64,000 bases of DNA from assembly GCF_007741535.1 (NCBI RefSeq), contig NZ_CP036525.1:4898001-4962000 (forward strand). Reading direction: 5' to 3'. This DNA comes from Rubripirellula lacrimiformis (lineage in GTDB: Bacteria > Planctomycetota > Planctomycetia > Pirellulales > Pirellulaceae). Position numbers and translations under genes: made by a program. Shown here in pieces: positions 3,493-20,453 of this stretch; the first letter of the stretch is position 1, and the number at the start of each line of letters is the position of its first letter. The notes below the pieces were generated by a model. It worked only from the letters and a program-made list of their open reading frames with translations, ran no database searches and was not told where the DNA came from.

Positions 3493-3725
3493 GATCATCT
3501 TCGAGAGGAATCGGAGACAAAGCTTGCCATGTTTCGGCGTCAATCGCCAGCACCCAGCCAATCGGTGGGGGCGAAGCGTCAGGCCCCAACGGTGCCGCTA
3601 GCCAATCACACGTCGGCCGGCACCAGCGGATTGTGCCGGCAAACGCTCGGGGATCGCCCCCACGACAGCTGCACCGGCGTTCTGGCTTCCGAAATCGGCG
3701 GTTGCCGGCGCCGGCGTCTTTCTAT

Positions 3726-5408
3726 TTACCGTTGCTGCAGGGCCGCAGCCAACTGGGCCACCGACGGAGCCACCTCGGCCAAGGCACGCTGCAGCGTTTC
3801 GGCCCGGCGGTCGCTTAGCCCATGCCGATTCAATTCGGCGATGTTCCGGTCTAGCACCTGCCAAGCTTCCAGCAGATGCTCCGCTTCGCGTTGCAGTGAA
3901 TCCAGGTCGTCGCGGTGGCTGACCCGTTGGTGCAGTACCTTGGAATGCTGATACACCTCTTGGGCGGCGTCCATCGTGGACTGGCGATAGGTTGCCGGTT
4001 GCAAGTACCGCTCGTAGCGACGCATGTCCGCCAAGAAATACTCGCTTGCCCCCTCCACCGCCGCCGCAGCCTGCAACAGCGACGCAGGATCAAAAACGTC
4101 CCCTGGCAATGCCACCCCAAGCGCCCCACGCAGCACGCCCAATTCCAATTCGATCGCCGACAAAGTGGACGGGTTCAAACGGGGGATGTTGGCGAAGATC
4201 GATTTTAACGAAAACCAATCCTGGTCGATCGGCCCCAGCAGTTGTCCCAGCGAATCGCGGCGGTCACCACGCTGGGCCGCGGATTCCAATTCTTGTGCCG
4301 ATCGAAACATTCGGCGGCTGCGCTCCATCACAATCGCCTGCTGCTTGGGCGGCAGGTTGACCATCGACCGGATCGTCAGTTGGTCCAAGACTTGGCCCAA
4401 ACTCTGTTCCAACCGATGCGCCGACGCAGTCAAGGATTGAGTGTTCTGCGGTGGCGGCATCCACAGCAAAGCGTAGGTTTGATCACCGCATTCGCGGAAT
4501 CGATCCAAGCGTCGCGACAGGTGCGGATCGCCGAGCTCGTAAACCGCTTGGCTGACCGGCGACCAACCGCGAACGAATTCGGTAAAACGAGTAACAACTT
4601 CCTCGTAGGGTGCGGTCTCGATCCGGTCGGCTTCTCTTAACATCTGACCTCGCATCAATCGCACGTCGTGGCTGATTCGCTCGGTTCGTGAGTTTGCGGC
4701 GTTTGAAAGCGGCAGGTCGTCCAAAATCGTTTGCAGATGAGTCGATCCGACGATCATCAAATCGTGCAATTGGTGTCGGTCGAATTGAGGCTGCAATCCC
4801 AGCTGCCCACACATCTCGGTCGCCAAACGATCGCTATCGCGAATCGCAGCGGTCGAACGACTGGTCAGTGCGTCGGTCGAACGCAGTGTGAACGATAGTT
4901 GCCGCCATCGTGCATCCAGTTCGGAATAGGCTGGGACGATCCGATCCAAGGTATCCAAACCGTCGCATCGCCCGATCAATGAACGAGTGTCGGCTGCGAT
5001 TCGATAGGCATCCGGCATCACCCCACGCAGGACCGCGTTGCGAGCCGCGGCGGTTCGAAGGTCGGCAACCAATGCGTCCACGTTGCTGCTGAAACCCACC
5101 AACGTCTCGACAAACTTGGCGGCTTGGCGGCTGCGGACACTGATCGACGCGGACCCGCCGGGATCACGGGGGCGGGCGATGGTCCGCTGTTCGTTGGTGG
5201 GGCGACTGGGGTTCGGCCGGTTCCCATGGGGACCGGGCGTGCCGGGCGGGGGCGCATCGGGCAAAGCTGCGGGCGGTGCAGGTTTGCGCCCCGACGCCTG
5301 CTGGGCTTCGGCGATCGTCCGAAAAAGATCCTCGATCAGACTGCCACGCTGAGCCATTGCTGGACCGGTGGCGATGCAAACCAGCATCAACGGAAGGATT
5401 CGGCGCAT
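3726..5408 (-). CDS. Secreted helical protein of unknown function
   Basis: This 560-residue protein starts with a clear signal peptide (LPLMLVCIATGPAMAQ, cleavage after about residue 19), followed by a Pro-rich linker (about 45-85) and a long, mostly alpha-helical body rich in Arg, Leu, Asp and Gln. No catalytic motif, repeat or family was recognised. It probably resides in the periplasm or at the cell surface. It is transcribed in the same direction as ispG, but the 233-bp gap argues against tight coupling. The ATG at 5408 begins exactly at the signal peptide. It resembles the many lineage-specific exported helical proteins of planctomycetes. Confidence 0.7.
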   Translation of the reverse strand: MRRILPLMLVCIATGPAMAQRGSLIEDLFRTIAEAQQASGRKPAPPAALPDAPPPGTPGPHGNRPNPSRPTNEQRTIARPRDPGGSASISVRSRQAAKFVETLVGFSSNVDALVADLRTAAARNAVLRGVMPDAYRIAADTRSLIGRCDGLDTLDRIVPAYSELDARWRQLSFTLRSTDALTSRSTAAIRDSDRLATEMCGQLGLQPQFDRHQLHDLMIVGSTHLQTILDDLPLSNAANSRTERISHDVRLMRGQMLREADRIETAPYEEVVTRFTEFVRGWSPVSQAVYELGDPHLSRRLDRFRECGDQTYALLWMPPPQNTQSLTASAHRLEQSLGQVLDQLTIRSMVNLPPKQQAIVMERSRRMFRSAQELESAAQRGDRRDSLGQLLGPIDQDWFSLKSIFANIPRLNPSTLSAIELELGVLRGALGVALPGDVFDPASLLQAAAAVEGASEYFLADMRRYERYLQPATYRQSTMDAAQEVYQHSKVLHQRVSHRDDLDSLQREAEHLLEAWQVLDRNIAELNRHGLSDRRAETLQRALAEVAPSVAQLAAALQQR

Positions 5409-5563
5409 GTGGATCGTTCGGGGTTGGCTAGAAAAGAAACTTAGGAATCCGCGTTACCGGTAGCGCAGAATCCCCACCATCGGCAGCGGGCTGCCGCGGC
5501 CAGCAGAAAAGAAAACAGCACCGTCGTCAGTGATGTTCGTCTATCAACGATAGCGTAAAACGA

Positions 5564-6043
5564 TCACAGATTCCGTAGAACCCATTGAAACACTCGCTCG
5601 GTCGCTTCGACCTGCCTGTCTGCTCGACCTTTCGCGGTCAATTGTTGGCGGGATACGGAAACATCGAACGGACCGCTGGATTGCCGCCGCGCCGCAGCGA
5701 TGAGGACAACCCCATCGAACCCTGCGGGCGCCGCGGGGCCAAAGTGTCCGGTGATCGAAACCGCCAAGTCGGCTTCGGGCGTCTTCGTTAGAACGCCCTG
5801 TGCCATCTGCTTCGCTACGACTTCGCACACGGCGGTTTGCTGGGCGATCGTATCGGCATCGACATCCAACCATCGCGTCTTCGTATCGTTGCGGTAGGTC
5901 ACCGCCGACCCACAAAGCCACTGCGACACTCCCGGCACCTTCCCCAATTCGCATGCGACCATGCCACAGGTACAGCTTTCCGCAAACACGACTCGGCACT
6001 TCGATTGGGCCAACCGGTCGACCACTTGGGCGGCTAGATTCAT
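5564..6043 (-). CDS. pncC: Nicotinamide-nucleotide amidohydrolase, CinA C-terminal family
   Basis: This stand-alone CinA C-terminal domain of 159 residues is the length of E. coli PncC, which deamidates NMN to NaMN in pyridine-nucleotide recycling. Visible family motifs are FAESCTCGMVA near residue 20, VTYRNDTKTRWL and the SITGHFGP turn. The usual ESCTGG is ESCTCG here, and the usual GxAGPxG-type loop is TGHFGP, so activity is likely but not certain. Its ATG overlaps the TGA of the upstream membrane-protein gene (ATGA), which implies translational coupling. No N-terminal MoCF-like domain is present. Confidence 0.85.
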   Translation of the reverse strand: MNLAAQVVDRLAQSKCRVVFAESCTCGMVACELGKVPGVSQWLCGSAVTYRNDTKTRWLDVDADTIAQQTAVCEVVAKQMAQGVLTKTPEADLAVSITGHFGPAAPAGFDGVVLIAAARRQSSGPFDVSVSRQQLTAKGRADRQVEATERVFQWVLRNL

Positions 6044-7050
6044 CGCTGACTCTGTGACGGGGGAAATTCACGATCGTCGGGAACCGTATCGATCGAGGCA
6101 GTCTGATCGGATTCCAAATCAGCAATCTCGTCATCCGCAGCTTCGTTCATGATCCGCTGGGCTTCGGCCATCTGGTCACAGAATTCGATCACCTCTGCCT
6201 TCTGGTCGGACGAGATCGGCATGCTACGAAACAGGTCCGATTCCTTTTTGACCAGTTCGCCATCCTTGTTCAGTTTTAACTTCACGGCCACTGCCGACAA
6301 ATAATCGCTGGACGAACAGGATGGGCACGACGCCAATTGCAGTTCGACAAAGTCGGTCGACGATTCCGAGAACTTCAGCCGACGGAACGCCGCGACATCG
6401 CCCGTTCCAACCATCTGCCAAGCCGGGTCCGTGGAACTGACCGGCAGCGCCGCCATTTCGTTGGTTTCCACGGTCCACTGTTCACAGTCTTCGCAAAACG
6501 GTGCGTTCCCGTAACTCTTTCTGGCCCAGAATGCCGTGACGAAAACGATTGCGGCCTCGATGATCCACCCGGCCACGGCTTCCCAACCATCATGCGGTTT
6601 GCCATTTTTGAACCACAATCCGTTCTCGAAAATGTACTGTCCCCATCCGTAGATCGAACGCGGATCGAACCCAACGATCGCAGCGTTGACCACATCGTCG
6701 CTGAACCCATCCGCCGACGAAATGTACCAGGCACAGTGGACGGCCCAGGCAACATAGAAACTGACCATCGTGGTCAAGATCACCATCCCCGCGACGAAAA
6801 AATGGCTGCGGAACTTGGTCCATCGGCAAGTCCACCCCACCAATGTTCCCAGCAAACCGCCGTAGGCTAAGGTCAGCAAACATCGCAGTTTCAGAAACGG
6901 CAGATAGACCACGGCGCCGGAGTACAGGATCCCGATCACTACGGCCGCGGGCACTAGAACCGCGAACGCGATCACCAGGCCACTGACGGGAACTCGCCCG
7001 CTGTGCCGATAGCGAGACACTGCGGTGCGGGAGTATTCGACCTCGTTCAT
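6040..7050 (-). CDS. Membrane protein with Cys-pair motifs, coupled to pncC
   Basis: This 336-residue protein has about four membrane segments in the first 200 residues (for example VSGLVIAFAVLVPAAVVIGIL, LLTLAYGGLLGTLVG, FFVAGMVILTTMVSFYVAWAV, GWIIEAAIVFVTAFWA). A soluble C-terminal part follows, with CEDC and CPSC pairs that could form a zinc ribbon, and an acidic tail. The start at 7050 is chosen because the residues before it in the longer frame do not look coding. No family recognised. The 4-bp overlap with pncC links the two, but no functional link is known to me. Confidence 0.7.
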   Translation of the reverse strand: MNEVEYSRTAVSRYRHSGRVPVSGLVIAFAVLVPAAVVIGILYSGAVVYLPFLKLRCLLTLAYGGLLGTLVGWTCRWTKFRSHFFVAGMVILTTMVSFYVAWAVHCAWYISSADGFSDDVVNAAIVGFDPRSIYGWGQYIFENGLWFKNGKPHDGWEAVAGWIIEAAIVFVTAFWARKSYGNAPFCEDCEQWTVETNEMAALPVSSTDPAWQMVGTGDVAAFRRLKFSESSTDFVELQLASCPSCSSSDYLSAVAVKLKLNKDGELVKKESDLFRSMPISSDQKAEVIEFCDQMAEAQRIMNEAADDEIADLESDQTASIDTVPDDREFPPSQSQR

Positions 7051-7330
7051 GATGCTGATTCGCTCGCTGACTTCGCCATGATCGTTGCCAAGGATCGCTG
7101 GCAATGGTCGTTCCCAAGATAGGTTCCATCGGATCGATGGTACCGCCGGCGGTCATTCTAACGCCTAGGCCGGCCGACGCGGACGAACACGACCGCGAAA
7201 AAGAAGCACTGCCTGTCGCAGTGGCATCCGTGCCAGCGGCCAGCACAACGCAGATCCCCACCGTCACGCCAACCAATGGGCAAAGAGTTCGCGCGGTCAC
7301 CCACCACATCGGTGCCGGGTGGTCCCGTGG

Positions 7331-7642
7331 CTACCAACCGTATCCAACGCCACGACCGATTCCAATGGAAACACCCACGCCGCGTGACGCCGGGTACCGG
7401 TAGGATGGCCGATAGTATCGGGACACCGGACGTCCGATCTGGACCGAAACCGTTGGCCGCGAATAAGCGGGCGCCGCGTAAACCGGGGCTCGGTAATACG
7501 AACGTACGGGAGCGACATAGCGGGGCGCGTAGACCGGAACGACCACAGCCCGACGCAATCCACGCCGATGGGCTTGGGCCTCGTCTGCCGTACTAAACAT
7601 GGCGGTCGCAACAACAACGCCCGCAATCAGATACTTCAACAT
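7331..7642 (-). CDS. Small secreted Tyr/Arg/Pro-rich protein
   Basis: This 103-residue protein has a signal peptide (LIAGVVVATAMFSTADEAQA) followed by a low-complexity mature region. The mature region is built from Tyr, Arg, Pro, Val and Ala (RYVAPVRSYYRAPVYAAPAYS, with a Gly-rich end). The ATG at 7642 has an excellent AGGAG seven bases upstream, so it is preferred over an in-frame TTG at 7648. Short exported Tyr-rich proteins of this type are common in Pirellulaceae and may sit in the cell wall or envelope, but no function is established. It stands alone, with gaps on both sides. Confidence 0.75.
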   Translation of the reverse strand: MLKYLIAGVVVATAMFSTADEAQAHRRGLRRAVVVPVYAPRYVAPVRSYYRAPVYAAPAYSRPTVSVQIGRPVSRYYRPSYRYPASRGVGVSIGIGRGVGYGW

Positions 7643-7760
7643 CGTCAAACTCCTAGTGAGAAAGGAACTTCGACAATTGTCGGGCGCCTGTCAAATATCA
7701 ACAAGCGTACAGGGTCGCCGGGGGGATCGTTTCCAGGTCCGCGGCGGCAGGTCCCCGCGC

Positions 7761-8156
7761 CTAGCGACGGCTGGGTTTCGGCGTTGCCGTCGACGCGATC
7801 TGCTGGACCGTCGGCAGTGCCACGCCCCGCTTTGCCGCTTCGAAACGCAGTGCACGCTCGAAAAAAGGCATCGGGAACGACGAATTCCGCTTGATCGCGT
7901 ACCGTTCGATCGCGACTACCAGTTCCGCGTCCAGTTCGCCTTTCTTGACCTTTCCGACCACCAGCGCGATGTAATCCCGCTGTTCCTGGCGGGTGGCCCG
8001 AAGCCGATTGACCAATTGGTCGCTCAGCCGAGTGAATCGGTCAGACGTGGAATAAGACGTCTGGGGCGACACAATCTGTGCTTCGGCAATCGACGACAAC
8101 GTGATTGCAAGCAACAAGGTTGCGAACGAGACGATTCCGGTTTGCCAGCGTGTCAT
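7761..8156 (-). CDS. Small secreted protein of unknown function
   Basis: This 131-residue protein has a signal peptide (IVSFATLLLAITLSSIAEAQ) and a compact helical mature domain containing RLSDQLVNRLRATRQEQRDYIALVVGKVKKGELD. The mature part has no Cys and no recognisable catalytic residues. It ends in a short basic Pro/Ser tail. The ATG at 8156 sits exactly at the signal peptide. It lies on the same strand as the Tyr-rich protein downstream, 118 bp away, so they may be co-transcribed. Confidence 0.72.
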   Translation of the reverse strand: MTRWQTGIVSFATLLLAITLSSIAEAQIVSPQTSYSTSDRFTRLSDQLVNRLRATRQEQRDYIALVVGKVKKGELDAELVVAIERYAIKRNSSFPMPFFERALRFEAAKRGVALPTVQQIASTATPKPSRR

Positions 8157-8647
8157 TTCTTTTCATCTCTGTGGTTCCGAGTTCGATTGCCGGGCATCCA
8201 GCACCCGTGACCATCGCGTGGAAGCCCCGCACGATCTTTGGCAGGATCCGAAACGGCTGCCCCGCCAAACGTCAAAGTTGGACGAACCAGTAGCCTTTTC
8301 CCAATCAGCACGACTTCTGCGGCATGGGTACCAAGACTTTGGCGTTCATTGCAAGCCGTCCGTTGAACTATGGCAATCTGGGCGGTTTACAGAATTGATG
8401 CGGCTGGCTTCTGGTTCTGTCTGGCCTGGTCGGGGCGATTGTGTGCACGGCAACGAATGGGAAGCCGAAACAAAACAACGTGAGCAAGGTTGTGCCAGGG
8501 TGCCGCCGAACTCACGAAGTGGTCCCGTCCGGCCCGGCCGCGTTCCCAATAAGGGGAACACACCAGGCGTCTTTGATGGGCAGGGCCGAAGACGGAACAA
8601 ATCATCAACTGCCGCCCTGAGTGGCGAAAAATCGGAAGGAATCCGCA
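8157..8647. other. Divergent intergenic region, no gene seen
   Basis: About 490 bp separate two divergent small exported-protein genes. It must hold both promoters. I saw no convincing -35/-10 pair, RNA gene or repeat; the open frames across it show no family features and overlap known genes out of frame. Confidence 0.45.
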
Positions 8648-9184
8648 ATGTATCGTTGGCTATGGATGGGGTCTCTTGCGGCCCTGCTTGTCGGATCGAC
8701 CGGTTGCCTGCATCACAATGTTCGCGGCGGCAACTGCTCGACGGGTGCGTGCAGCACCGGAGCCTGTGGAAGTGCACAATCGTGCGGCGGCGGCCAATGT
8801 GGCGGCTGCAATGAGTGCGCCGACAGCGCCCCAGTGGGTGTACTGAGTCGGCTGAAACATCGCAGCAAAGCCAATGCTTGCAACGGCGACTGCGGTTGCG
8901 GCAAAAGCGGCGTGCTGGGACGCCTGGGCACCATGGCTGGTGTCGGAAACTGTGGTTGTGGCAGCCGCACTGGATGTCAAACCGGCCCATTGGGTTGGCA
9001 ACAAGGCGGCCTGGACTACAGTTCGCACTTGAATCCAGGTCTGCTCGGCCACAACGCCGGCAACGCGATCAATGGTCAGCAGTTCGCTCCTGGACCGCCT
9101 ACCGGACAAGTCGCGTACCCTTACTACAGCGTCCGAGGTCCTCGTGACTTCTTCGTCGACAATCCGCCGACAATTGGCCGTTAA
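8648..9184 (+). CDS. Cysteine-rich lipoprotein
   Basis: This 178-residue protein has a hydrophobic signal and a lipobox LVGSTGC (Cys20). The mature N-terminal half is very Cys/Gly-rich, with 13 further cysteines in short spacings (STGACSTGACGS, GGGQCGGCNEC, NGDCGCGKS, GNCGCGSRTGC). The C-terminal half is Cys-free and rich in Asn, Gly and Pro. GGAAGGA eight bases before the ATG fixes the start. Such spacing suggests metal binding or disulfide cross-linking at the cell surface; neither is shown. A strong hairpin follows the gene. Confidence 0.78.
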   Translation: MYRWLWMGSLAALLVGSTGCLHHNVRGGNCSTGACSTGACGSAQSCGGGQCGGCNECADSAPVGVLSRLKHRSKANACNGDCGCGKSGVLGRLGTMAGVGNCGCGSRTGCQTGPLGWQQGGLDYSSHLNPGLLGHNAGNAINGQQFAPGPPTGQVAYPYYSVRGPRDFFVDNPPTIGR

Positions 9185-9246
9185 GCAAACGGTAGGAACG
9201 CCCATTCCCAGGGAAAATTTTCGCTCTGGGAACAAGCAAAATAATC

Positions 9247-9284
9247 GACAACGGCCAGCCGATTCTTTCGGACTGGCCGTTGTC
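9247..9284 (+). terminator. Strong hairpin after the Cys-rich lipoprotein gene
   Basis: A perfect 12-bp stem (gacaacggccag / ctggccgttgtc) with a 14-nt loop that can extend the stem further, 60 bp past the stop codon. It is followed by tctatag rather than a pure T-run, so it is a likely but imperfect intrinsic terminator. Confidence 0.6.
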
Positions 9285-9441
9285 TATAGATCCAACCAAG
9301 TTCGGCGAACATCGGTCGACGCATCACCCGAGGCGTCCATCGGCGTCTGTTCGCTGAACCTTTGCGACCCGACAATGGGTCTAGCTTGTTAGACAACCAG
9401 ATATCGCACCTGAAGTTTCCATTCGCCGTGAGGGCAAACCT

Positions 9442-10416
9442 GTGGCATCCGACTTTCGGCTCAAAGAACAGCTTCCCAAACTGACCGAACAAATCGTCGC
9501 GACCTACACGCCGGAGGATTCGATCAACCATCTCGGCCACTGCGCCCTGCCCAGCTATTCGGGCATCGTCGAGATACTGATGAACATCAAAGACATTCTG
9601 TACCCAGGCTACCGCCGCAAAGTCGGTCTGCACTCTGGCAACATCGAGTATCACGTCGGCAGTTTGATCGACACGTTGCATGACCAGTTGACGACGGAGA
9701 TTGCGCGAGCCCTCCGACACGAAGACCGCGTCACGCAAAAGCATACCGATTGCGAAAGTGATATCGACTTCGAAGCCAAGGGCCAAGCGATGGCGATCGA
9801 GTTGCTGAAATGCATCCCCGGTCTTCGCCGCACGCTGGCCACCGATGTCCAAGCAGCCTATGACGGCGACCCCGCTTGCCTAACGACTGACGAAGTCGTG
9901 TTTTGCTACCCCGGTTTCGAAGCGGTCACGATCTATCGCATCGCTCATGAATTGGTCCGATTGGACGTGCCTTTCATCCCGCGCATGATGACCGAATGGG
10001 CGCACAAAGAAACCGGAATCGACATCCACCCCGGTGCAACCATCGGTGACTACTTCTTTATCGACCACGGCACCGGCGTGGTGATCGGCGAGACCTGCGA
10101 AATCGGGCAGCACGTCAAGCTGTACCAAGGTGTCACGCTGGGCGCTCTCAGTTTCAAAACGGACAGCGAAGGCGTCTTGATCCGAGGCCAAAAACGGCAT
10201 CCCACGATCGAAGATCGCGTCGTTGTCTACGCCAACGCAACCATTTTGGGCGGTCGCACCATCGTGGGACACGACTCGGTCATCGGTTCCAGCGTGTGGA
10301 TCACAAAGACCGTGTCGCCGAGCACCACCGTGCTGCTGGAAAAGCCGCAATTGAAGGTTCGCGGTGCATCGGCCGATCACGAAGTGCTGGAAGATCGATT
10401 GAACTTCCAGATCTAG
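9442..10416 (+). CDS. cysE: Serine O-acetyltransferase
   Basis: Acetylates L-serine with acetyl-CoA to make O-acetylserine, the substrate of the cysteine synthase also present in this window. The 324 residues comprise a helical N-terminal domain and a left-handed beta-helix made of hexapeptide repeats. The signature [22 protein letters not shown] contains the catalytic His (about His209), and DGDPA near 141 supplies the paired Asp. The likely start is GTG at 9442 with gaggg six bases upstream. At the C-terminus the chain ends soon after the helix, like other EpsC-type enzymes. It is a single gene, converging on the SulP transporter. Confidence 0.93.
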
Positions 10417-10425
10417 CAATCGTCA

Positions 10426-10450
10426 TACGCCGCGTAATAGATGCGGCGTA
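10426..10450. terminator. Hairpin between convergent cysE and sulP
   Basis: Perfect 8-bp stem tacgccgc/gcggcgta with a 9-nt loop, ten bases past the cysE stop. There is no T-run. It could terminate transcription from either side. Confidence 0.45.
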
Positions 10451-10579
10451 AGAGATGCGGTGGCCGAAAGTCCTGACGCCACTTGCCACGACCGTGCCCA
10501 AGCGCCGCCCGCCAAAAGTCAGCGCGACTTACGTCCGGTGCGGCGGCTTGTCTTTCATGCCGAACTTGGCAATCCGCGG

Positions 10580-12589
10580 TTAGACGGCCGATGCCTTGAC
10601 CAACGTTTTGCTGGGGTCCCCGTTTGCGACGAAGGCGTTCTCGCGGGCCACCTGCACGTTCTCGACCACGAACGTCAGCCTATGATGGGGTTGGACTTCG
10701 CGGCGTAGGAAGTCCAGCATCTCATTGCAGGCGGTTTGAATCATGATGACTTCGATCCGAACTTGCGGGATCGCTTGGACCGGCGTCTGTTCCAGCAAAT
10801 GCTTACCGACACCGCGGCACGGAGTTGTGGTGTAGCCAGTGGCGCCCAACTGAATGCATTGGTTGACCAACATCGATTCGTTTTCCGGAGCCGTCATGAT
10901 GGTGATCCGTCTTAGCGTGCACAATCCTTTCCGGCGGGCTGCGTGTTCGTGGTTCGTCAGCGGTTGGTGTTCGTCCAGACCGATCACGCGAAACACGAGT
11001 CCCTGCTGCGAAAAATCATCGGACACTTCATGCAGTTTGTCCATCACGCTGTGGTCGACGAACTTCGTTTCGGACAGATCGAAGTCAACGTTCTTGCGTT
11101 CCACCAAACCCAATTGCTCGATCTGGCGTCGGATAGGAATCCAGTTGCTGAACACGGCCGATTTGTAAGCCACGATCCGGATGGTTTGACCATCGTCATC
11201 GGCGACTTCGATCTCGGGTTTGAACAACGACCGCAGCGGCACCCCGTTGGCCAAGTGGATCACAACCTTGGTAGCGATCCCAATCGCGATCCCGATCAAC
11301 AAGTCGGTTGCCAGCACCGCAACCATCGTCACCGTAAAGATGGCCAATTGTTCGCGACCGATTCGCCAAACGTTCATGAATTCGCTGGGGTGGGCCAAGC
11401 GAAAACCTGTATAGATCAGCATCGCTGCCAACGCGGCCATCGGAATACGGTGCAAAACCATCGGAATCATCGCGACACAGCTAAGCAGGAACATGCCGTG
11501 CCAGAAATCGGCAAATCGGGTCCGTGCTCCGTTATCGATATTCGCCTTGCTCCGTACGATTTCCGAAATCATCGGCATTCCGCCGACCATGGCCGCGCAA
11601 AGGTTCCCGCAACCGACCGCAACGATATCGCGATCCATATTGGTTTTTCGGCGCCAAGGATCGATCAGGTCAATCGCTTTGGCACTGAGCAACGATTCCA
11701 AACTGCCGATGACGAAAAACATGAACACCCACGACCAAGCTTTGGGCTGCTGAAGCGCCGAAAAGTCGGGGGTGGTGATCTGGTCGAACATGCCAAAAAC
11801 GCGATCGGGCATCGCGACGAGGTAGTTTTCGCCCAACTGATATTGGTGGTTCTGCAGCACATAGGAATGCTCATGCATCAAGTCAAAGAACATGCCCATC
11901 GGAACAGCGACCAGCAACACGATCATGGGAGATGGAAAGACCTTGGCTAGCTTGAATTTTTTACCGATCATGGGCCACAGGAACATGATCAAAATGCTGG
12001 TACCACCAATCGTCGCGATTGCCGGGTTGGCGGATGCCAGGTAGTGCGGAATTTCTCTTAACATCGTCACAGGGTCCCCCGATGCAGTCACACCGAGGGC
12101 AACAGGAATTTGCTTGGCAATGATGATCACGCCGATGGCGGCCAACATTCCGTGCACTGCCGAGATCGGAAAGAATTCGCCCAAAATCCCGGCCCGAAAG
12201 AACCCGAAGGCAACCTGCAACACAGCCGCCGCGACCCCCACGGCCAACGCCGCACGGTAGGCATCGACATCGTTGGCCGACCAACCGCCCGCCATCCCAT
12301 CGCCGCCAAACGATTCGATACAGCCAATCGCGATCACGATCAAACCCGCCGCAGGCCCCTTGATCGTCAACTCTGAATTGCTAATCAGTGTGGCAACCAC
12401 CGACCCCACGATCGCTGTGAAAATGCCAGCGATCGGTGGATAGCCGCTGGCGATCGAAATGCCCAAGCACAGTGGCAAGGCGATCAGAAAGACGAGCAGG
12501 CCGGAGATGAAGTCTTGTTTGAAGTACTTCTTAAATCCAGCCAGGTTGCCGCGAGGCACTTCCGAGGTTTGGGGGGTCGTGGTGGTCAT
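10580..12589 (-). CDS. SulP-family anion (bicarbonate?) transporter with STAS and PII-like domains
   Basis: This 669-residue membrane protein has an N-terminal SulP transport domain (to about 430; [19 protein letters not shown] and [12 protein letters not shown] mark the first helices). A STAS domain follows at about 455-550 ([19 protein letters not shown]). After that comes an extra module of about 85 residues ([17 protein letters not shown] ... QVRIEVIM ... [12 protein letters not shown]) whose order of strands and loop matches PII-like signalling proteins. The family exchanges anions such as bicarbonate or sulfate. Directly upstream on the strand are the dab genes (122-bp gap), so bicarbonate is the best guess. 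The ATG at 12589 is preferred to the TTG at 12661. Confidence 0.85.
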
Positions 12590-12711
12590 TTGGCGATTGG
12601 TCCAGGTCCCCAACGGATGGGGTGAAGATGTAAGGTGGGACTTGATCAGGCGAACCAACAAAACGCTGCTGGCCCCTGCTCGAAAATGCGATCTACGGCC
12701 GCAGGGTGGGG

Positions 12712-14211
12712 CTAATCATCGTGATCACGACCGACAACATCATCGTCATCATCCGATTCGTCCGTGTCCGAATCATCCGAATCATGGTGGGCGTTGTCGT
12801 AGTTTTTGGTCGCGTGCGTGATCGGGTTCAAGGCACGTTTTTCGGTCAGTTCCTTCGCTGCGTGATACCGCGATGCCACGCCTGGTTGCGGCACCAAGCC
12901 ACCGCCAAGAATCAGAACCGTCAGCATCAGAACAGCGATTCGTTCCGAGCGGCGAGCATGCATCGGGATCAATGTGGCGTGTGATCGACCGGTAAAGATC
13001 CGAAAGTACGCCATCAATACCGCGATGCCACATAGCGCCGCTGCGATGACAACCGTCATTCCAACCAATGGGTAGACCTCGACAGCGCCTTCGATCAAAA
13101 GTTCCATGCCGACGAAGCCGACCGTGAAAGGAAACCCAATTGCGGCCAAACCGGTCAGCAAAAAGAAGCCCGCCAACGTGGGCATGTGACGACTGAGTCC
13201 GTGGTAGTCGGCCAGCGATATCCGAGAGATGCGTGCTTCGATACTTCGCAGCGTGATCCCAAATCCCGTCAATGACAGCCCGACCGACAACCATACGCAA
13301 AGCGCCCCGGTCAATCCGATCGGTGTGACCAGTTCTAAGCCGACCAACACCAACGAAGCTTGACTTAGGAACAGATAACAAAACATGCGGCGAGCTTCGC
13401 GTTGCACTAGCGACATCCCGCCGGCGTACACCGCCGTGACCAACGACAGAACGGCGATACTCTGCAGCGCCCAATCCGGTGCGATCGGCAACACAAACCG
13501 CATCACCGCGTAGGCCCCGGTCAAAGGGGTCACAAACAAGATGGCGGTTCCAAACGTCGCCTTTTCAAACAGGTCGGTCATCCACAGGTGCAGCGGCGCG
13601 ATCCCACTGCGAAGCAGTGCCGCAGCAGTCAACAACGCGCCGGGAATCAACACCGACTGCGATACCTCGCCCGTCCACTGCAGTGCGGCATAACCGACCA
13701 CCAACAGGACCACAAACACGGACATGTGCAGTACGAAGATTCGCGTGCAACGACCGCGTCGTTTCAGTTCTAGGTACACCGGCAGTGTCGCCAAACACAT
13801 CAATGCGACCAGTGTCCACGAAGCGCGGCAACTGAACGTCGCCAACAAAATCGCTTCGGATACAAGCGTTGACGTCAACGAGAACCTTGGCGCCTTCGTA
13901 CGCAGGGTCGACAAGACCGTCACAAAGTGGATCAACGCGCCCAACGGCAACAGGAACGCACTGAGTTCATCGACCACAAAGACTTCTTGATGGAACAGCC
14001 AATCGATGACCGCCCAATGGTCATGCGCGGCAAACGTTCCCAGCATGATGAAGTCAATCAGTTCGCCCACCGTCAGCGCGAGCGTCAAACCGCTGATCGC
14101 GACGGCTTGCCGGAACGAATGATCCGGATTGGCAAAAAACCGAATCCAGATAGCGCCGACCAAGGGAACCAAAATGGATGCTTCCATCCACGGAAAATGC
14201 AATTCACCCAT
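12712..14211 (-). CDS. NuoM/MrpD-like antiporter-type membrane subunit of the DAB cluster
   Basis: This 499-residue integral membrane protein of the proton-translocating NADH-quinone-oxidoreductase/antiporter superfamily has about 13 hydrophobic segments. Typical features include [19 protein letters not shown] with the conserved Lys, and the later [14 protein letters not shown]. It ends in an unusual hydrophilic tail rich in Asp, Ser and His. Its ATG overlaps the TGA of the upstream dabB-like gene by one base (TGATG), so the two are translationally coupled. In described DAB systems one such subunit pairs with DabA; here it seems to be an additional, second one. It could form a heterodimer with the NuoL-like partner. 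Confidence 0.8.
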
Positions 14212-15605
14212 CAGGCAGCCCTCTCGGAATCTTCGGGATGCAATTCGATCGCGTCCGATTCACGCGAAGGTTCGCGAGAAATCTTGTCGGTCGTCCAACG
14301 TTCCCAGACATCAAATTGCTGGAACAGCACCATGAACGGAGCCACGATCCATCGGTCCAGCGCGATGTCCATGAACCCACGGTCAAATCCATACCGGTAA
14401 CACCAGCGTTGGACCCCGACGGGCACCCAAGTTCCAAAACGAGACTGCGAGGCGGGCAACCGACTGCCTAACGCGTTTTCCATCGTTTGATAGTCACGAA
14501 GCAGCGTGGGTGCCCTTAGTAGTTGCATCGTTCGCATGCAGGCGTGGCCGATGATGTGAATCAAGGCCAAGTATTTCAGTCCAAAACCGATCTCAACCAC
14601 AATGATTCCTACCTGAGTAAGCGAAGCGTAGGCCAGCGAGACCTTGACGTCATGTTGGACACGCGACATCAACGCGCCGCTAAGCGCCGACACCACCCCC
14701 AAGCCGATGACGAGACACTGCAGCACCAGCGACACCTCCAACAAAGGGCTGACTCGCAATAACAAGTACACGCCAAGGTGGACCGACAACGCGCCATAGA
14801 AGATCGCACTCGACGGTGTCGGACCTTCCATCGCCCGCGGCAGCCATCCCGAAAATGGAAACAAGGCTGACTTGCCCGCGGCAGCAATCAACAGCAACGT
14901 TCCGACAAACAGGGCTTGCTGCGGCGTGACCGCTGCAGTCCCCTCGGGCCAGATACCGCTGCTCATCAAGCCCCCAAAATCGCCTTCGCCGGTCATGTGG
15001 TGAATCGAAATTGCCGCAATCAAAAACGCAGCATCCGAAAGGCGATAGATCGACCAAACCCTTTGACCACTACGGACCGGATTTTCGTGCTGATCAAAGT
15101 AGGCAACCAACAACGCCGACGACAAACCCACCATTTCCCAACCGACGAACAAGGTTTCGATCGTGCCGGCCAAGGATGACGTGACCATGCCGGTAAAGAA
15201 AACGGCGTAGTACAGAAAGAACCGACTGTACCCTTCTTCGCGGTGCAAATAGCGCCGAGTGAACGAACCTACGACACCGCACAACACGCACGAAAGGATG
15301 ACGAAGGGAATGCTGAGTCGGTCAAAAACAAACTTCAGGTGAAAGTGAAACTCTTGCTCGGGGATGGTCACCCAGTCGCCCCATTCGATAGGAACATAAC
15401 GGGTCCCCAGCGCTAGCATCATCACCAAGATCGCAACGGCGGGAGTCAGCGAGAACAACACCGCAGCCTGTGTCAGCCGCGCCACCGATGATTCGCTGAG
15501 CGGGCGTCCGACCAGCGAAGTGAGTCCTAAGACGGCAATCAGAATCGCCGGGCTGACGACAACAGCCGTGCCTAAAACTTGGAATGTCCATTCAACAGCG
15601 GTCAT
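14211..15605 (-). CDS. dabB: DabB-like proton-translocating subunit (NuoL-like)
   Basis: This 464-residue membrane protein is related to NuoL/NdhF and contains the PF00361-type core. Visible features are [16 protein letters not shown], the glutamate-bearing [17 protein letters not shown], and [27 protein letters not shown] with the conserved Lys. In DAB complexes this subunit is thought to couple cation flow to DabA. Its ATG at 15605 overlaps the dabA TGA (ATGA), matching the known dabB-dabA linkage though with dabA first here. The C-terminus is short and hydrophilic, lacking the long lateral helix of NuoL. Confidence 0.88.
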
Positions 15606-18600
15606 TGGACACCTCCCAAGCGATCCAAGCCGACCGAGGCGAATCCCAAATGGTCGCGTCTTCCACGGTACCAATCCGTCGACGTCGCAGCGGAGGGTAA
15701 ATCATGAGTCGTTGGTGCATAGGGCTGAAAGCGTCCCTGGTGATAGCGTTTGATTTGACAAGTCTCGGCATCGAAAACGCTCAATTGAACCCAACCGTTG
15801 CGGACCAATCGGTTGATGGTCTCGCTGCGGTTCATGATCGCTTGCATCTTTTCGGGTGTCGTTTCGATGACGAACAGAATTCGCATCGGTTCGTGAATTT
15901 CGATCATCTGTTGCGATAGCCCCGGGCGCAGATCGCTGGACGCCCCCGTCATCACGCCCAACATCGATGCGATGTTGTGCGGCAACTTCGAACCGCAACC
16001 GTAGCCTTCGACGTCGACGGTCGAAAAGTAATATTCCAGATTGATGCCGGCACAGACGGGAATCGCTGCGGCCAGGATCCGCGCCAAAATCGACGCGTCG
16101 TCATCATCGATGGTGGGATCGTAAGACGTGACAAAGCAACGTCGATCCAGATACATTCCCCGACTCCATTCACGGCGACCAACAAACGCCAACGCGTTGG
16201 TCGCGTGGTTGTATTCCGGTCGCGCTTGGGACAAGTCTTCGGCGCGTTGTTCGACATGCTCCAACGCAGCACTGAAACTCATATCGATCGGCGCGGATTC
16301 GAAGCGTCGAGAACGTTCATGTGCGTTCCTGGCACGCGCCTCGTCGACACTGGCTTCGATCCGCCGAAACAGCGTTCGGTGAGTCCGTGGCAGCGAATCC
16401 AGATCGTAGTACTCCACCCGGTCGTTGCAAGTATTGTGATAGGCACCGACAAACCGAACATCATCGGGAAGTTCAATGCCCTGCTGGGCCACCAGTGCAC
16501 GGACTCGCGAATCGTTCGCCATCATCGCAAAGGCCCGCGCGTTGGGGCCACCACGACCGCCGCTGCATGCACCGCAGTTGTAAGCCGATTCGTGCGGATT
16601 GTTCAGACTGCTGGATCCATGGCCAAAGAAGACAGTGATGGGCGGCAGATCCTTGACCGAACCGATGTCCTGCAAAATACGAACGACGATCGAAGCCATC
16701 TCCGACAGGCTATAGCCCAGTGCATCGAATGCTTGCCCCGGTTGATCGACGATGCGTTCCAGGTGCAACTCGGTCGCGGGCGGACGCGTCAAGGTTCCGA
16801 TCGCTTCGCGAATTTGTGACGTCAACCGCGGTGCCAAAATTCGGGCGACCATCGGGAACGTTGCCAACGCACCAAAGACGCCGGTGATCCAACCGCCCAG
16901 CATCGTGCGGGACCCCGAGTGGACTTGGTGGGTGACGGTGCCGATCCGATGTCGTCGTTTCGCGCGTTTGGCGTTGTCTTCGACGGACGAAAACAACGGC
17001 TCTTCGACCACATAGTGATCCGGCTTAATCAGGTTCGGGCATAGAGGCCGAAAATGGGCATGGTCGGCACCCTGGTAGTACATCGCAACCGCATAGAAGC
17101 CCGCCGCGGAAGCCGTTTGGCATTCGGGATCGACTTCCTCTAAGTGACGACGCATGGATTCTTCGCGATCATCGATACAGAAGATCGCTTGATAGGCGGG
17201 GATGCGTTTCGGCGCGGCCGACTGTTTCCGGTCATTGATCCGCTTTGCATGAATCGCGACGGCGTCGAGTGCTTGGTGCCGATACTGCTGTTCGTACGCC
17301 AGATGAAAAATTCGGCGGCGTTCCAAAGATGTGAAGGATTCGATCTCGCTGATCAATCGCTGCCACTGCGGTTTGGACATCGAAACCAATTGGTCAGGCG
17401 TCCATCCGCCGGTCTGCGCCAACTGAAAAACCGTGAACGCACGCTGTTGAACCGAAGGCATTCTGGCTTTCGACGAAGCTCGGGTTGCCAACGAACGAAT
17501 TTCACGCAGATCGTCGGTACCGAACAGTCGGCGTCCCGCGTCCACCAACGCGTGCTGTTCCAGCAGCAACTGAATCGCTAGGTACTGGGCCAGAGAACCC
17601 GCCGGGGCTGGATGAGGAAAGAACGGCGCCGAGGTTTCCATCTGCCAAATCATGCCGGCCCAACCTCGCAACGCGAGCAACGATTGGCCGATGTATTCGT
17701 CTTGTTCGGATTCGTCGATTCCAAGCGTTTCCAGCGAGTTTCCGATCGACTCGTAAGCGTCGAAGTCGCCCGCTAGGATCTCGTCCAACTGTGCCTGCAT
17801 CGGCCGCATCCACGATGGCAGCAACGACATTCCCTGGGCGTACAACGTTGCGAACGAATGCGCGAACCCGGCTTCGCGATCCGGCAGCGATAGTCCCGCG
17901 AACCCCTGATCCAAGAACACTCCGCAAAACCGAATCAAGATCTCCTGAACCGGATTGTCGGTGTCCGTTCCCGTTGCCTCTAACAACATGTCCCGCAGCC
18001 GCAGCGGATGCGGGGTGATGGGAGCCGCTAGCCCGGCCTTTTCGACCCCGCGTTTGCAGACTTCCCACATCAACGTCAACACAAACGATTCCCACTTCTT
18101 GGTGGACCAGGAATCGATCTTTTGGTCGCGGAATTTGGTCAGCAAGCTATTTAGCAAGGTTTGGTCAGCCGGCCCCAATGCCGCACCGACCACATCGCCA
18201 CTGGTTCGCGTCTGCCCGTCGCCGCTGTTGCGGTGTCGCAACACCCAATTGCGGGTGTGAGCCATCATCTGTTCACGCTCGACGTTGGACACCGAATCAT
18301 TGAACGTACGTAGCAGTTCCGATTCGGCCAATAGCCATTCCAGTTCCGCGTCCGGCGCCGCGTGAGGCGGCATCTGCAACATCGCCAACCGCAGCGTATA
18401 TCGAGTACCGAAACTAGCGATCAGCGCGTCGGCACCGTCCGCCAGATCTTCCAGCAATACATCTTGCAGATCCTGCAGTCGAATTCGCCCCGAATGCAAC
18501 GCTTCCCGGAACCGCTCCTCGATCAAATATGGCTGGCAGTCGTACATCGAACCACCCACCACGACCGCTTCTTCGAAAGGCAGATCCTCGAACGAATGCA

Positions 18601-18769
18601 GTGTGTTGTGGTGAACGAATACCGAGATGGGCCCCTGCGCAGGCAAGTAGTGCGTTGCGTGCTCTAGGGCAGTTTCCAAACGCGAGCGCCACTCGCACGG
18701 TGCAACTGTAGGGGAGGTGTCGTTGGCGGGTTCATCCGACGCGGTCACGGAAGCGGGGCCGTCGGGCAT
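15602..18769 (-). CDS. dabA: DabA, beta-carbonic-anhydrase-like subunit of an inorganic carbon transporter (DUF2309)
   Basis: This 1055-residue protein is of the UPF0753/DUF2309 family. DabA-DabB complexes energise CO2 hydration to accumulate bicarbonate. The N-terminal family stretch [22 protein letters not shown] is present near 48-70. The zinc ligands can be read as Cys531 and Asp533 in [16 protein letters not shown], His717 in FFGHGSS and Cys732 in YNCGACSG. The His-Cys spacing of 15 is the same as in the characterised Halothiobacillus enzyme (my recollection: C351, D353, H524, C539). It is the first gene of a four-gene run with dabB, a second antiporter subunit and sulP. Confidence 0.93.
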
Positions 18770-19049
18770 GCTGCAAAAATCCTAGCGAGGAGTGGCGTCG
18801 CGGACAGGCAATGCCATCCACACAACTTTGCACATTCGCATATCTCGTGCCGCGTTGCCTGATGATGCTGGGCGTCGTCGCGAATTCCCCGTCATTTACG
18901 GCCCGAAAAACTTTCTTTTGCTAAAGAGTCATCGATTCCGCACGATCAACATGCAAGTGCCTGCACGGGGGCGTGCAACATATTGCACAGCCAGCATCAA
19001 GAGGTTGATGCGAAGAGAGATTGGGACGGGATTGTGACGCGAGGATCGA

Positions 19050-19113
19050 GACGACAAAAGGTTGTGGCGTTAACGAATCGTGACGCAAAAAGGCTGTGGC
19101 GCAAACGAATCGT
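19050..19113. repeat. 32-bp tandem repeat upstream of dabA
   Basis: Two adjacent copies (19050-19081 and 19082-19113) share gacg-caaaaggttgtggcg and end in aacgaatcgt, with about five differences. Confidence 0.7.
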
Positions 19114-19120
19114 AGCGAGA

Positions 19121-19169
19121 CTCGCCAAGAGTTTCGGCCTAGACGTCGCACACCGAAAGTCTTGGCGAC
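19121..19169. repeat. Imperfect inverted repeat upstream of dabA
   Basis: Arm ctcgccaagagtttcgg (19121-19137) faces ccgaaagtcttggcgac (19153-19169); 15 of 17 positions pair. The right arm is repeated again about 50 bp further on. Confidence 0.6.
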
Positions 19170-19242
19170 TTGCGCTACCGGGGTGGGCCTAAACGTCGTA
19201 CACCGAAAGTCTTGGCGACTTGCGCTACGGGGTGGGGGTGGG
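19143..19242. repeat. 50-bp direct repeat, two copies
   Basis: A unit beginning acgtcgcacaccgaaagtc at 19143 recurs at 19193 with a few differences and continues into a ggggtggg run. The core cttggcgacttgcgctac is identical in both. Confidence 0.75.
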
Positions 19243-19336
19243 GGTACGCGGTACGCGGTTGCGGCCGACTCGATCTTTTAGTCGCCTGCCGTTTGGCTTG
19301 GCGACTTGCTTTGCACACCTTGTTGGTGCTGGGGCT

Positions 19337-20278
19337 CTACAGGCCTAGGTCACCGAACAGGGGAGTGCTTAGGTAACGTTCGCCGAGGCTGCACATGATC
19401 GTGACGATTCGCTTGCCCTTCATTTCAGGACGGGCGGCGACTTGAGCGGCAGCCCACATATTGGCTCCGCTGCTGATGCCGGCCACGATGCCTTCCATCT
19501 TGGCCAGCTTTCGGCCCCATTCGAATGCATCTTCGTCTTCGACCAAGACCACGTCATCGATGATGGAAGTATCCAAGTTCTTGGGAACGAACCCGGCACC
19601 GATGCCTTGGATGCGGTGTTTGCCTGGACTTCCGCCGCTGATCACGGACGAATGAGTCGGTTCGACCGCGAACGCTTTGAAGTTCGGGTTTTGCTTTTTC
19701 AGATACCGTGCGATCCCGGTCAACGTACCGCCGGTGCCCACGCCGGCGACGACCGCATCGATGTCATGCCCGCTGTCTTCCCAAATTTCGGGACCAGTGG
19801 TGGCCTCGTGAACCGCGGGGTTGGCGGGGTTTTCGAACTGCTGAGGCATGAACGCGTTTTCGGTGGTTGCCACCAACTCGGATGCGCGGCTGATCGCCCC
19901 GTTCATTCCGTCACCGGCAGGTGTCAGCACCAAGTTGGCGCCCATCGCCCGCAGCAAAGCCCGTCGTTCGACCGACATCGATTCGGGCATTGTCAGCGTC
20001 AACTTGTATCCTTTGGCGGCGCAAACGAACGCCAACGCGATGCCAGTATTGCCGCTGGTTGGTTCGACGATGTGCGTCCCTTGGACGATCTTCCCGTCTC
20101 GTTCACCGGCTTCGATCATGGCCGCACCAATTCGATCTTTGACGCTGTTCAGCGGCTGAAAGAACTCGCACTTTGCAAAAATCGTCGCTCCGCCTTCGGG
20201 AGCCAGTCGGTTGATTTGGATCATCGGGGTATCGCCGACGGCCAAAGTCACATCGGCGTACGTTCGTCCTCTTGGCAT
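19337..20278 (-). CDS. cysK: Cysteine synthase A (O-acetylserine sulfhydrylase)
   Basis: This PLP enzyme of 313 residues makes cysteine from O-acetylserine and sulfide. The PLP lysine is Lys47 in PLNSVKDR, the phosphate/substrate loop is TSGNTG at 74-79, and the glycine-rich GVGTGGTLTG loop and the C-terminal ISSGAN motif are intact. Of the two adjacent ATGs, that at 20278 is taken because GGAGAG lies a better distance upstream. It pairs metabolically with cysE at 9.4-10.4 kb but is not in the same operon; the dab cluster lies between them. Confidence 0.95.
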   Translation of the reverse strand: MPRGRTYADVTLAVGDTPMIQINRLAPEGGATIFAKCEFFQPLNSVKDRIGAAMIEAGERDGKIVQGTHIVEPTSGNTGIALAFVCAAKGYKLTLTMPESMSVERRALLRAMGANLVLTPAGDGMNGAISRASELVATTENAFMPQQFENPANPAVHEATTGPEIWEDSGHDIDAVVAGVGTGGTLTGIARYLKKQNPNFKAFAVEPTHSSVISGGSPGKHRIQGIGAGFVPKNLDTSIIDDVVLVEDEDAFEWGRKLAKMEGIVAGISSGANMWAAAQVAARPEMKGKRIVTIMCSLGERYLSTPLFGDLGL

Positions 20279-20453
20279 CATTTCTCTCCGAAAAAACGCG
20301 TTATGTTGAACAGGTGCCCGCGGATCCGACCGCGGCATCGAACGTCCCAAAATCGAACCAGGACGCAGATCAATTCAGCCACTTGGGTGGCATCTCGGAA
20401 TGCGATGTCGCAAAACCGAGACAAAATCCCCCAAGGGCAAATGTACATTTCGG

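Follow-up and report, generated by a model that had tools for sequence, protein, structure and literature searches.

A sister class of DabA with antiporter-like partners and a PII-tailed SulP transporter in Rubripirellula lacrimiformis

A four-gene locus on the minus strand

In the planctomycete Rubripirellula lacrimiformis, four genes form a single minus-strand run that may encode a complex for accumulating dissolved inorganic carbon (DIC) together with a partner anion transporter. The run lies in a 64-kb window (contig NZ_CP036525.1, 4,898,001 to 4,962,000) of a single-contig genome of 8.54 Mb, and positions count within that window unless the label of another locus precedes them. The first gene, dabA (15602..18769, 1055 aa), encodes a beta-carbonic-anhydrase-like putative catalytic subunit of the DAC/DUF2309 family (PF10070, 754 bits against a cut-off of 25, residues 36-994). 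It is followed by dabB (14211..15605, 464 aa), whose product is a truncated NuoL-like protein (PF00361/PF00662). These matches bear out the family membership that an earlier first-pass annotation, made from the letters alone, had assigned to both. The third gene (12712..14211, 499 aa) is NuoM-like, with PF00361 at positions 75-292, NDH_I_M over residues 12-456, and profile matches to NuoM/NdhD chains in the PDB; we coin the name dabM for it. Its product ends in about 27 residues rich in aspartate (12715-12800). The last gene, sulP-PII (10580..12589, 669 aa from an ATG at 12589), encodes a transporter with a Sulfate_transp domain (PF00916, 199 bits) and, in its structure model, an SLC26 fold, to which a C-terminal PII-like domain is attached (10640..10912; PF00543, E 2e-9, 38 bits, cut-off 25).

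The run is compact. The dabA stop and dabB start share 4 nt (ATGA, 15602..15605) and the dabB stop and dabM start share 1 nt (TGATG, 14211..14211), so that the two overlapping junctions lie where the first-pass annotation had placed them. Given the ATG at 12589, 122 nt separate the dabM stop from the SulP start, and a terminator scan found no terminator on the minus strand in this gap (12589 to 12712). Across the scans, 21 terminator sites were returned against 12.6 expected, and 2 promoter sites against 4.5 expected. The open reading frame tool had begun dabB at 15674 and SulP at 12661, in each case at a TTG upstream of the ATG used here (15605 for dabB). Upstream of dabA, the intergenic stretch 19045-19309 holds direct repeats (a 29-nt unit three times and a 32-nt unit twice) along with imperfect inverted repeats.

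The catalytic site of DabA appears complete. The codons of Cys531, Asp533, and Arg535 (17165..17179, minus strand) correspond to the zinc ligand and Asp-Arg dyad of DAB2 (C351, D353, R355), and the stretch from His717 to Cys732 (16574..16621, minus strand) contains the remaining zinc ligands (DAB2 H524, C539). All of these residues match exactly, including the four that the first-pass annotation had listed. Furthermore, the DabA model resembles beta-carbonic anhydrases (VIA second look). A Foldseek comparison of the model with the PDB (library to 2026-04-08) gave no match at E 0.001, and 9rd0 was absent among the matches listed. In a plasmid search that returned 123 records, none covered 80% of DabA.

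Two classes of DabA

Our results point to two classes within the DabA family. Once frames shorter than 700 aa and 12 short loci also covered by longer ones had been removed, 152 DabA rows were aligned to DabA2 of Halothiobacillus neapolitanus, and these comprised 31 rows of class I and 121 of class II; a further 7 class I and 4 class II rows were classed separately. By this comparison the window DabA is a member of class II, which is sister to the DAB2-type class I. In a 124-row tree built with a quick method, in which the identical sequences of L038 and L119 were both counted, one branch with a Shimodaira-Hasegawa approximate likelihood ratio support (SH-aLRT) of 100 divides the classes, 85 rows against 39. 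Frame length was considered as a class marker and ruled out, since planctomycete DabA frames 1051-1099 aa long (L206-L211) have class I residues, and two of 836 and 882 aa at L212 are class II. In two class II loci, L051 (6930-10105) and L102, dabA is split into two separate frames.

The classes differ at several DabA residues (DAB2 numbering). Ser356, Glu444, Trp656, and Leu658 are present in 38 of 38 class I proteins, and Pro704 in 37. In class II, position 356 is Glu in 120 of 121 rows, position 704 is Val or Ala in 118, and the Leu658 position is His (107), Asn (13), or Phe (1), the window having His855 (codon read from the sequence at 16205..16207, minus strand). Glu occupies position 444 in 31 of 31 aligned class I rows and in none of the 121 class II rows, where columns 440-449 hold no Asp or Glu at all. 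In the window model, this region forms a "finger" hairpin of two helices (residues 593-620 and 623-645, confidence partly low; 16835..16993, minus strand), from which the DAB2 glutamate is absent. Replacing Glu444 by Ala or Gln abolished DAB2 activity (PMC13144422). The zinc site itself is common to both classes, with Cys, Asp, His, and Cys kept in 152 of 152 rows and Arg in 151 (120 of 121 in class II).

Gene order follows the same division. With each locus classed by its best BLAST match, and the calls for L206-L213 corrected, dabB follows dabA in 108 of 125 class II loci and precedes it in 36 of 38 class I loci. The order dabA-dabB-dabM is found in 100 of the 125, in line with the first-pass suggestion that relatives be searched for the same arrangement, and because of this recurrence the cluster is more than a chance assembly. 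Among the 17 class II loci in which dabB does not follow dabA, 11 reach a contig end just past dabA and 6 do not. It is very improbable that class II has lost DIC activity and that its zinc site serves another reaction. Changes at further DAB2 positions (S356, W656, L658, P704) and five untruncated loci with a class II DabA and no antiporter genes nearby would suit such a loss, but the zinc ligands and Asp are invariant, Arg is missing from a single class II row, and the gene order is kept in four-fifths of loci.

Class II is not confined to one lineage. In a scan, the nearest named relatives of the window DabA were planctomycetes such as Aporhodopirellula and Rhodopirellula. PF10070 was found in 107 of 393 genomes of the planctomycete phylum, and 68 have a long-frame DabA, length being a mere proxy for class. 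It was also found in 56 of 299 genomes from the phylum of genome G060, probably Pseudomonadota, whose loci (L181-L200) include class II clusters in which as many as four antiporter-like genes surround one dabA, some with a SulP gene upstream. A search for CsoS2 gave a match in 1 of 398 genomes. In that genome, an alpha-carboxysome genome of the G060 phylum, CsoS2 lies about 30 kb from a class II cluster, and this links class II with a carbon fixer in at least one case.

The arrangement has been noticed before. As described in a 2017 survey, COGNAT clade C consists of ybcC upstream of nuoL, COG1008 (NuoM), and COG0659 (sulfate permease), and these neighborhoods were guessed to encode a new energy-converting complex (PMC5700660). 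The window shows the same gene order. That account predates the assignment of DAB function, and its accessible part mentions neither a residue comparison with DAB2 nor a SulP-PII fusion. Following that proposal, an exergonic DabA reaction, such as bicarbonate dehydration or another cleavage, could expel H+ or Na+ via the antiporter subunits. The intact NuoL-like ion pairs and the multiple antiporter-like genes of the G060-phylum loci are compatible with such an exporter. We consider it quite improbable, however, given that DIC accumulation has been found in family members studied by others (PMC13144422) and that a class II cluster is present in an alpha-carboxysome genome.

Antiporter-like subunits and the SulP-PII transporter

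For DabB we compared 100 class II rows, 84 from planctomycete or verrucomicrobial loci and 16 from the G060 phylum, with weak or short rows left aside and, from L181-L200, any DabB below 130 bits or of at least 700 aa. At the position of DAB2 Ile151, a NuoL-like Glu is present in 100 of 100 class II rows and 0 of 31 class I rows. His260 is replaced by Tyr and Lys347 by Arg in every class II row, and the Ser316 position holds Ala in 86 rows, Ser in 11, and Gly in 3, the window having Ala. Arg182, Asp185, Lys235, Ser256, Lys310, and His343 are kept in all 100, and His339 in 99. The C-terminal end of the protein is also affected. DabB2 columns 375-490, which by hydropathy should hold the last transmembrane helices (TM12-15), contain at most one residue in 100 of 100 class II rows and 104-147 residues in 31 of 31 class I rows.

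Some of these differences fall on the proposed proton path of DAB2. Alanine changes at eight proton-path positions of that complex impaired activity, and finger Glu444 together with TM12-13 of DabB was proposed to form the outer proton half-channel (PMC13144422). Four of the eight differ in the window (DabA Glu444; DabB His260, Ser316, and Lys347) and four are retained (S256, K310, H339, and H343). Like DAB2 of H. neapolitanus (PMC13144422; PDB 9rd0), the window cluster combines a PF10070 beta-carbonic-anhydrase-like subunit, with its Cys-Asp-Arg/His/Cys site, and a NuoL-like partner in which the four retained residues are common to both. Unlike DAB2, its DabA belongs to the sister class, without the finger glutamate and with His for Leu658; its DabB is truncated and carries Glu where DAB2 has Ile151, Tyr in place of His260, Ala in place of Ser316, and Arg in place of Lys347; there is an extra NuoM-like subunit; and dabA comes first, whereas a DAB2-type dabB directly precedes dabA. 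With half of the proton-path positions changed and DabB truncated, the first-pass view of the cluster as a standard DAB pump is not supported.

DAB1 of the same bacterium (Hneap_0907-0909), compared by description, is likewise a three-component complex (PMC13144422). It has a 1046-aa DUF2309 protein and a PII/SbtB gene nearby (PMC4633670). It departs from the window in that its NuoL gene stands before the DUF2309 gene and a small membrane protein (Hneap_0908) is the third member. On this gene order, DabA1 would be expected to fall in class I.

It remains conceivable, but in our judgment unlikely, that the window encodes an ordinary DAB/MpsAB pump, in which DabA and DabB suffice, the proton path tolerates changes, and DabM is accessory or stabilizing. 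The kept zinc site, the four retained DabB residues, and the class II DabA loci that have no dabM or dabB nearby would be expected of such a pump. Against it, DAB2 is impaired by alanine at Glu444, His260, Ser316, and Lys347, the very positions that class II has replaced in 121 of 121, 100 of 100, 89 of 100, and 100 of 100 rows, respectively, and DabB is truncated throughout.

The best evidence that DabB and DabM belong to one antiporter is a fusion at L212, where a 653-aa class II DabB continues into C-terminal DabM sequence (profile positions 321-419, independent E-value 1.3e-15). That locus (3514-13600) has two class II dabA-dabB pairs in divergent orientation. In the second DabB, of 665 aa, the DabM-like C terminus is weak (independent E-value 0.11), and a phmmer search with this protein gave no match at E 1e-30.

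The transporter adds a second feature to the cluster. Its PII-like tail is modeled with the beta-alpha-beta-beta-alpha-beta order, most ten-residue blocks having a predicted local distance difference test score (pLDDT) of 84-90, and matches PDB 2cz4 (E 5.8e-9). The first-pass annotation was right about the SulP gene and missed this domain. Although PII genes adjoining DIC-accumulating complex (DAC) genes are already known (PMC5700660, PMC4633670), we found no SulP-PII fusion described in the titles and abstracts of the open-licence literature searched. Unlike SbtA-SbtB and BicA, the window has its PII-like domain fused to the carrier, which is only distantly related to BicA (108.3 bits against the NCBIfam equivalog cut-off of 880). 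According to one account, it is not yet clear how SbtB acts on BicA (PMC13249358).

In a survey restricted to SulP rows of at least about 447 bits and to unfragmented DabA, 37 copies of SulP-PII occurred in 36 of 393 planctomycete-phylum genomes, 23 of them within 10 kb of a DabA gene and 14 not near one. Thirty of these 36 genomes also have a long DabA (hypergeometric P ~2e-20, kinship ignored). Of 125 class II loci, 55 have a neighboring SulP gene, upstream or downstream in the same orientation, and the pairing was in print by 2017 (PMC5700660); the first-pass remark that two energized DIC routes in one operon are unusual is therefore not upheld. In Verrucomicrobiota-labelled loci, dabA has divergent SulPs (28-30% identical) as neighbors, and SulP-PII stands next to a class I DAC in L206. 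That different SulPs are repeatedly paired with DACs favors bicarbonate over sulfate as the substrate. Alternatively, SulP-PII could be a sulfate permease serving neighboring cysteine genes, its adjacency to the DAC being incidental. We regard this as a possible though less probable explanation, one that accords with the Pfam name of the domain and with the cysE-like (9442-10416) and cysK (19337-20350) genes that flank the cluster. Yet cysE plus cysK matches occurred, among 30 other loci, only in the same-genus L050 and L051, and in none of 80 named loci, while the SulP-DabA linkage spans other families and orders.

Coupling, carbon use, and implications

Taken together, our results are best explained by a class II DAC made of DabA, DabB, and DabM with a partner anion transporter, a reading in which we place about even confidence. 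In such a complex, DabA would hydrate CO2 to bicarbonate on the cytoplasmic side, and the flow of ions through a split, complex-I-like antiporter pair would drive the enzyme. Because the finger glutamate and the presumed TM12-15 stretch are missing here, DabM may provide a second half-channel beside the truncated NuoL-like DabB, and class II coupling should differ from that of DAB2 in at least the outer proton half-channel. SulP-PII would probably import or exchange bicarbonate, and its tail probably senses nucleotides, acting as a built-in valve comparable to SbtB, which acts in trans on SbtA.

Several observations argue against this interpretation. An alignment to NuoM/NdhD places R201 and R274 of DabM at two antiporter lysines (80 of 81 rows each), the TM5 Glu is lacking, and Glu370 is one residue off its NuoM/NdhD position, though acidic in 78 of 81 rows; for these reasons DabM may not conduct ions. 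In addition, the class I DabBs of L206-L209 end in a DabM-like extension although these loci keep Glu444, so the extension and the loss of the glutamate are not strictly exchangeable. At five loci with DNA on both sides (L182:5455-8475; L191:2900-5953; L092, L098, and L109 near 7923-11090), a class II DabA has no antiporter match nearby, and L140 has dabM and no dabB, these being counts of locus neighborhoods rather than of whole genomes. With respect to DabA, Leu658 is strict in 150 DAB2 homologs and ordinary beta-carbonic anhydrases have Gln or His there, but changing it to Gln, Gly, Ala, or Asn left in vivo activity of DAB2 unimpaired (PMC13144422), so that the class II His may mean little. 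As for the transporter, several relatives have an eroded PII tail, 10 of the 35 SulPs scanned (a set that includes tail-less ones) match Pfam P-II, and the flanking cysteine genes would also suit a sulfate carrier. By eye, the DabA genes of L182 and L191 adjoin CheV-like and peptidylprolyl isomerase-like genes.

The genome offers some indication of how the cluster might be used. There is no PF00016 match to RuBisCO in it, which fits the heterotrophy presumed in the first-pass annotation, and the bicarbonate would likely go to carboxylases or to pH balance. That annotation had described the four-gene cluster and had not seen what lies elsewhere in the genome: a class I DAC with dabB then dabA (L003:5330-9896; genome 7,702,329-7,706,895) and two proteins with beta-carbonic anhydrase domains, one a beta-carbonic anhydrase and the other a 755-aa SulP fusion (L179:2696-4963). 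A transposase-like open frame, recognized by eye, lies upstream of the class I DAC (L003:2944-4272). SulP frames of comparable length (750-800 aa) are common in the phylum.

Our study bears on how ion flow is coupled to CO2 hydration. The 2026 DAB2 structure paper ascribed proton coupling in part to a glutamate that is absent across the sister class, which is found in planctomycetes, verrucomicrobia, and probably Pseudomonadota; in the literature searched, we found no report of a class-wide loss of the finger glutamate and the DabB C-terminal helices set against that structure. The two classes, set side by side, offer a direct way to test the coupling of ion flow to the reaction. One speculative extension, to which we give little credence, is that class II DACs are geared vectorial carbonic anhydrases, with the proton path moved from the DabA finger to a row of antiporters and with the PII-gated SulP adding control in cis. 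That row could consist of a DabB with part of DabM fused to it, a single free-standing DabM, or as many as three antiporter-like genes in addition to DabB. If so, the ion cost per CO2, and hence the bicarbonate gradient reached, would depend on the number of antiporter subunits. More generally, the SulP-PII fusion gives an independent hint of control by PII-type sensors over SulP-type carriers.

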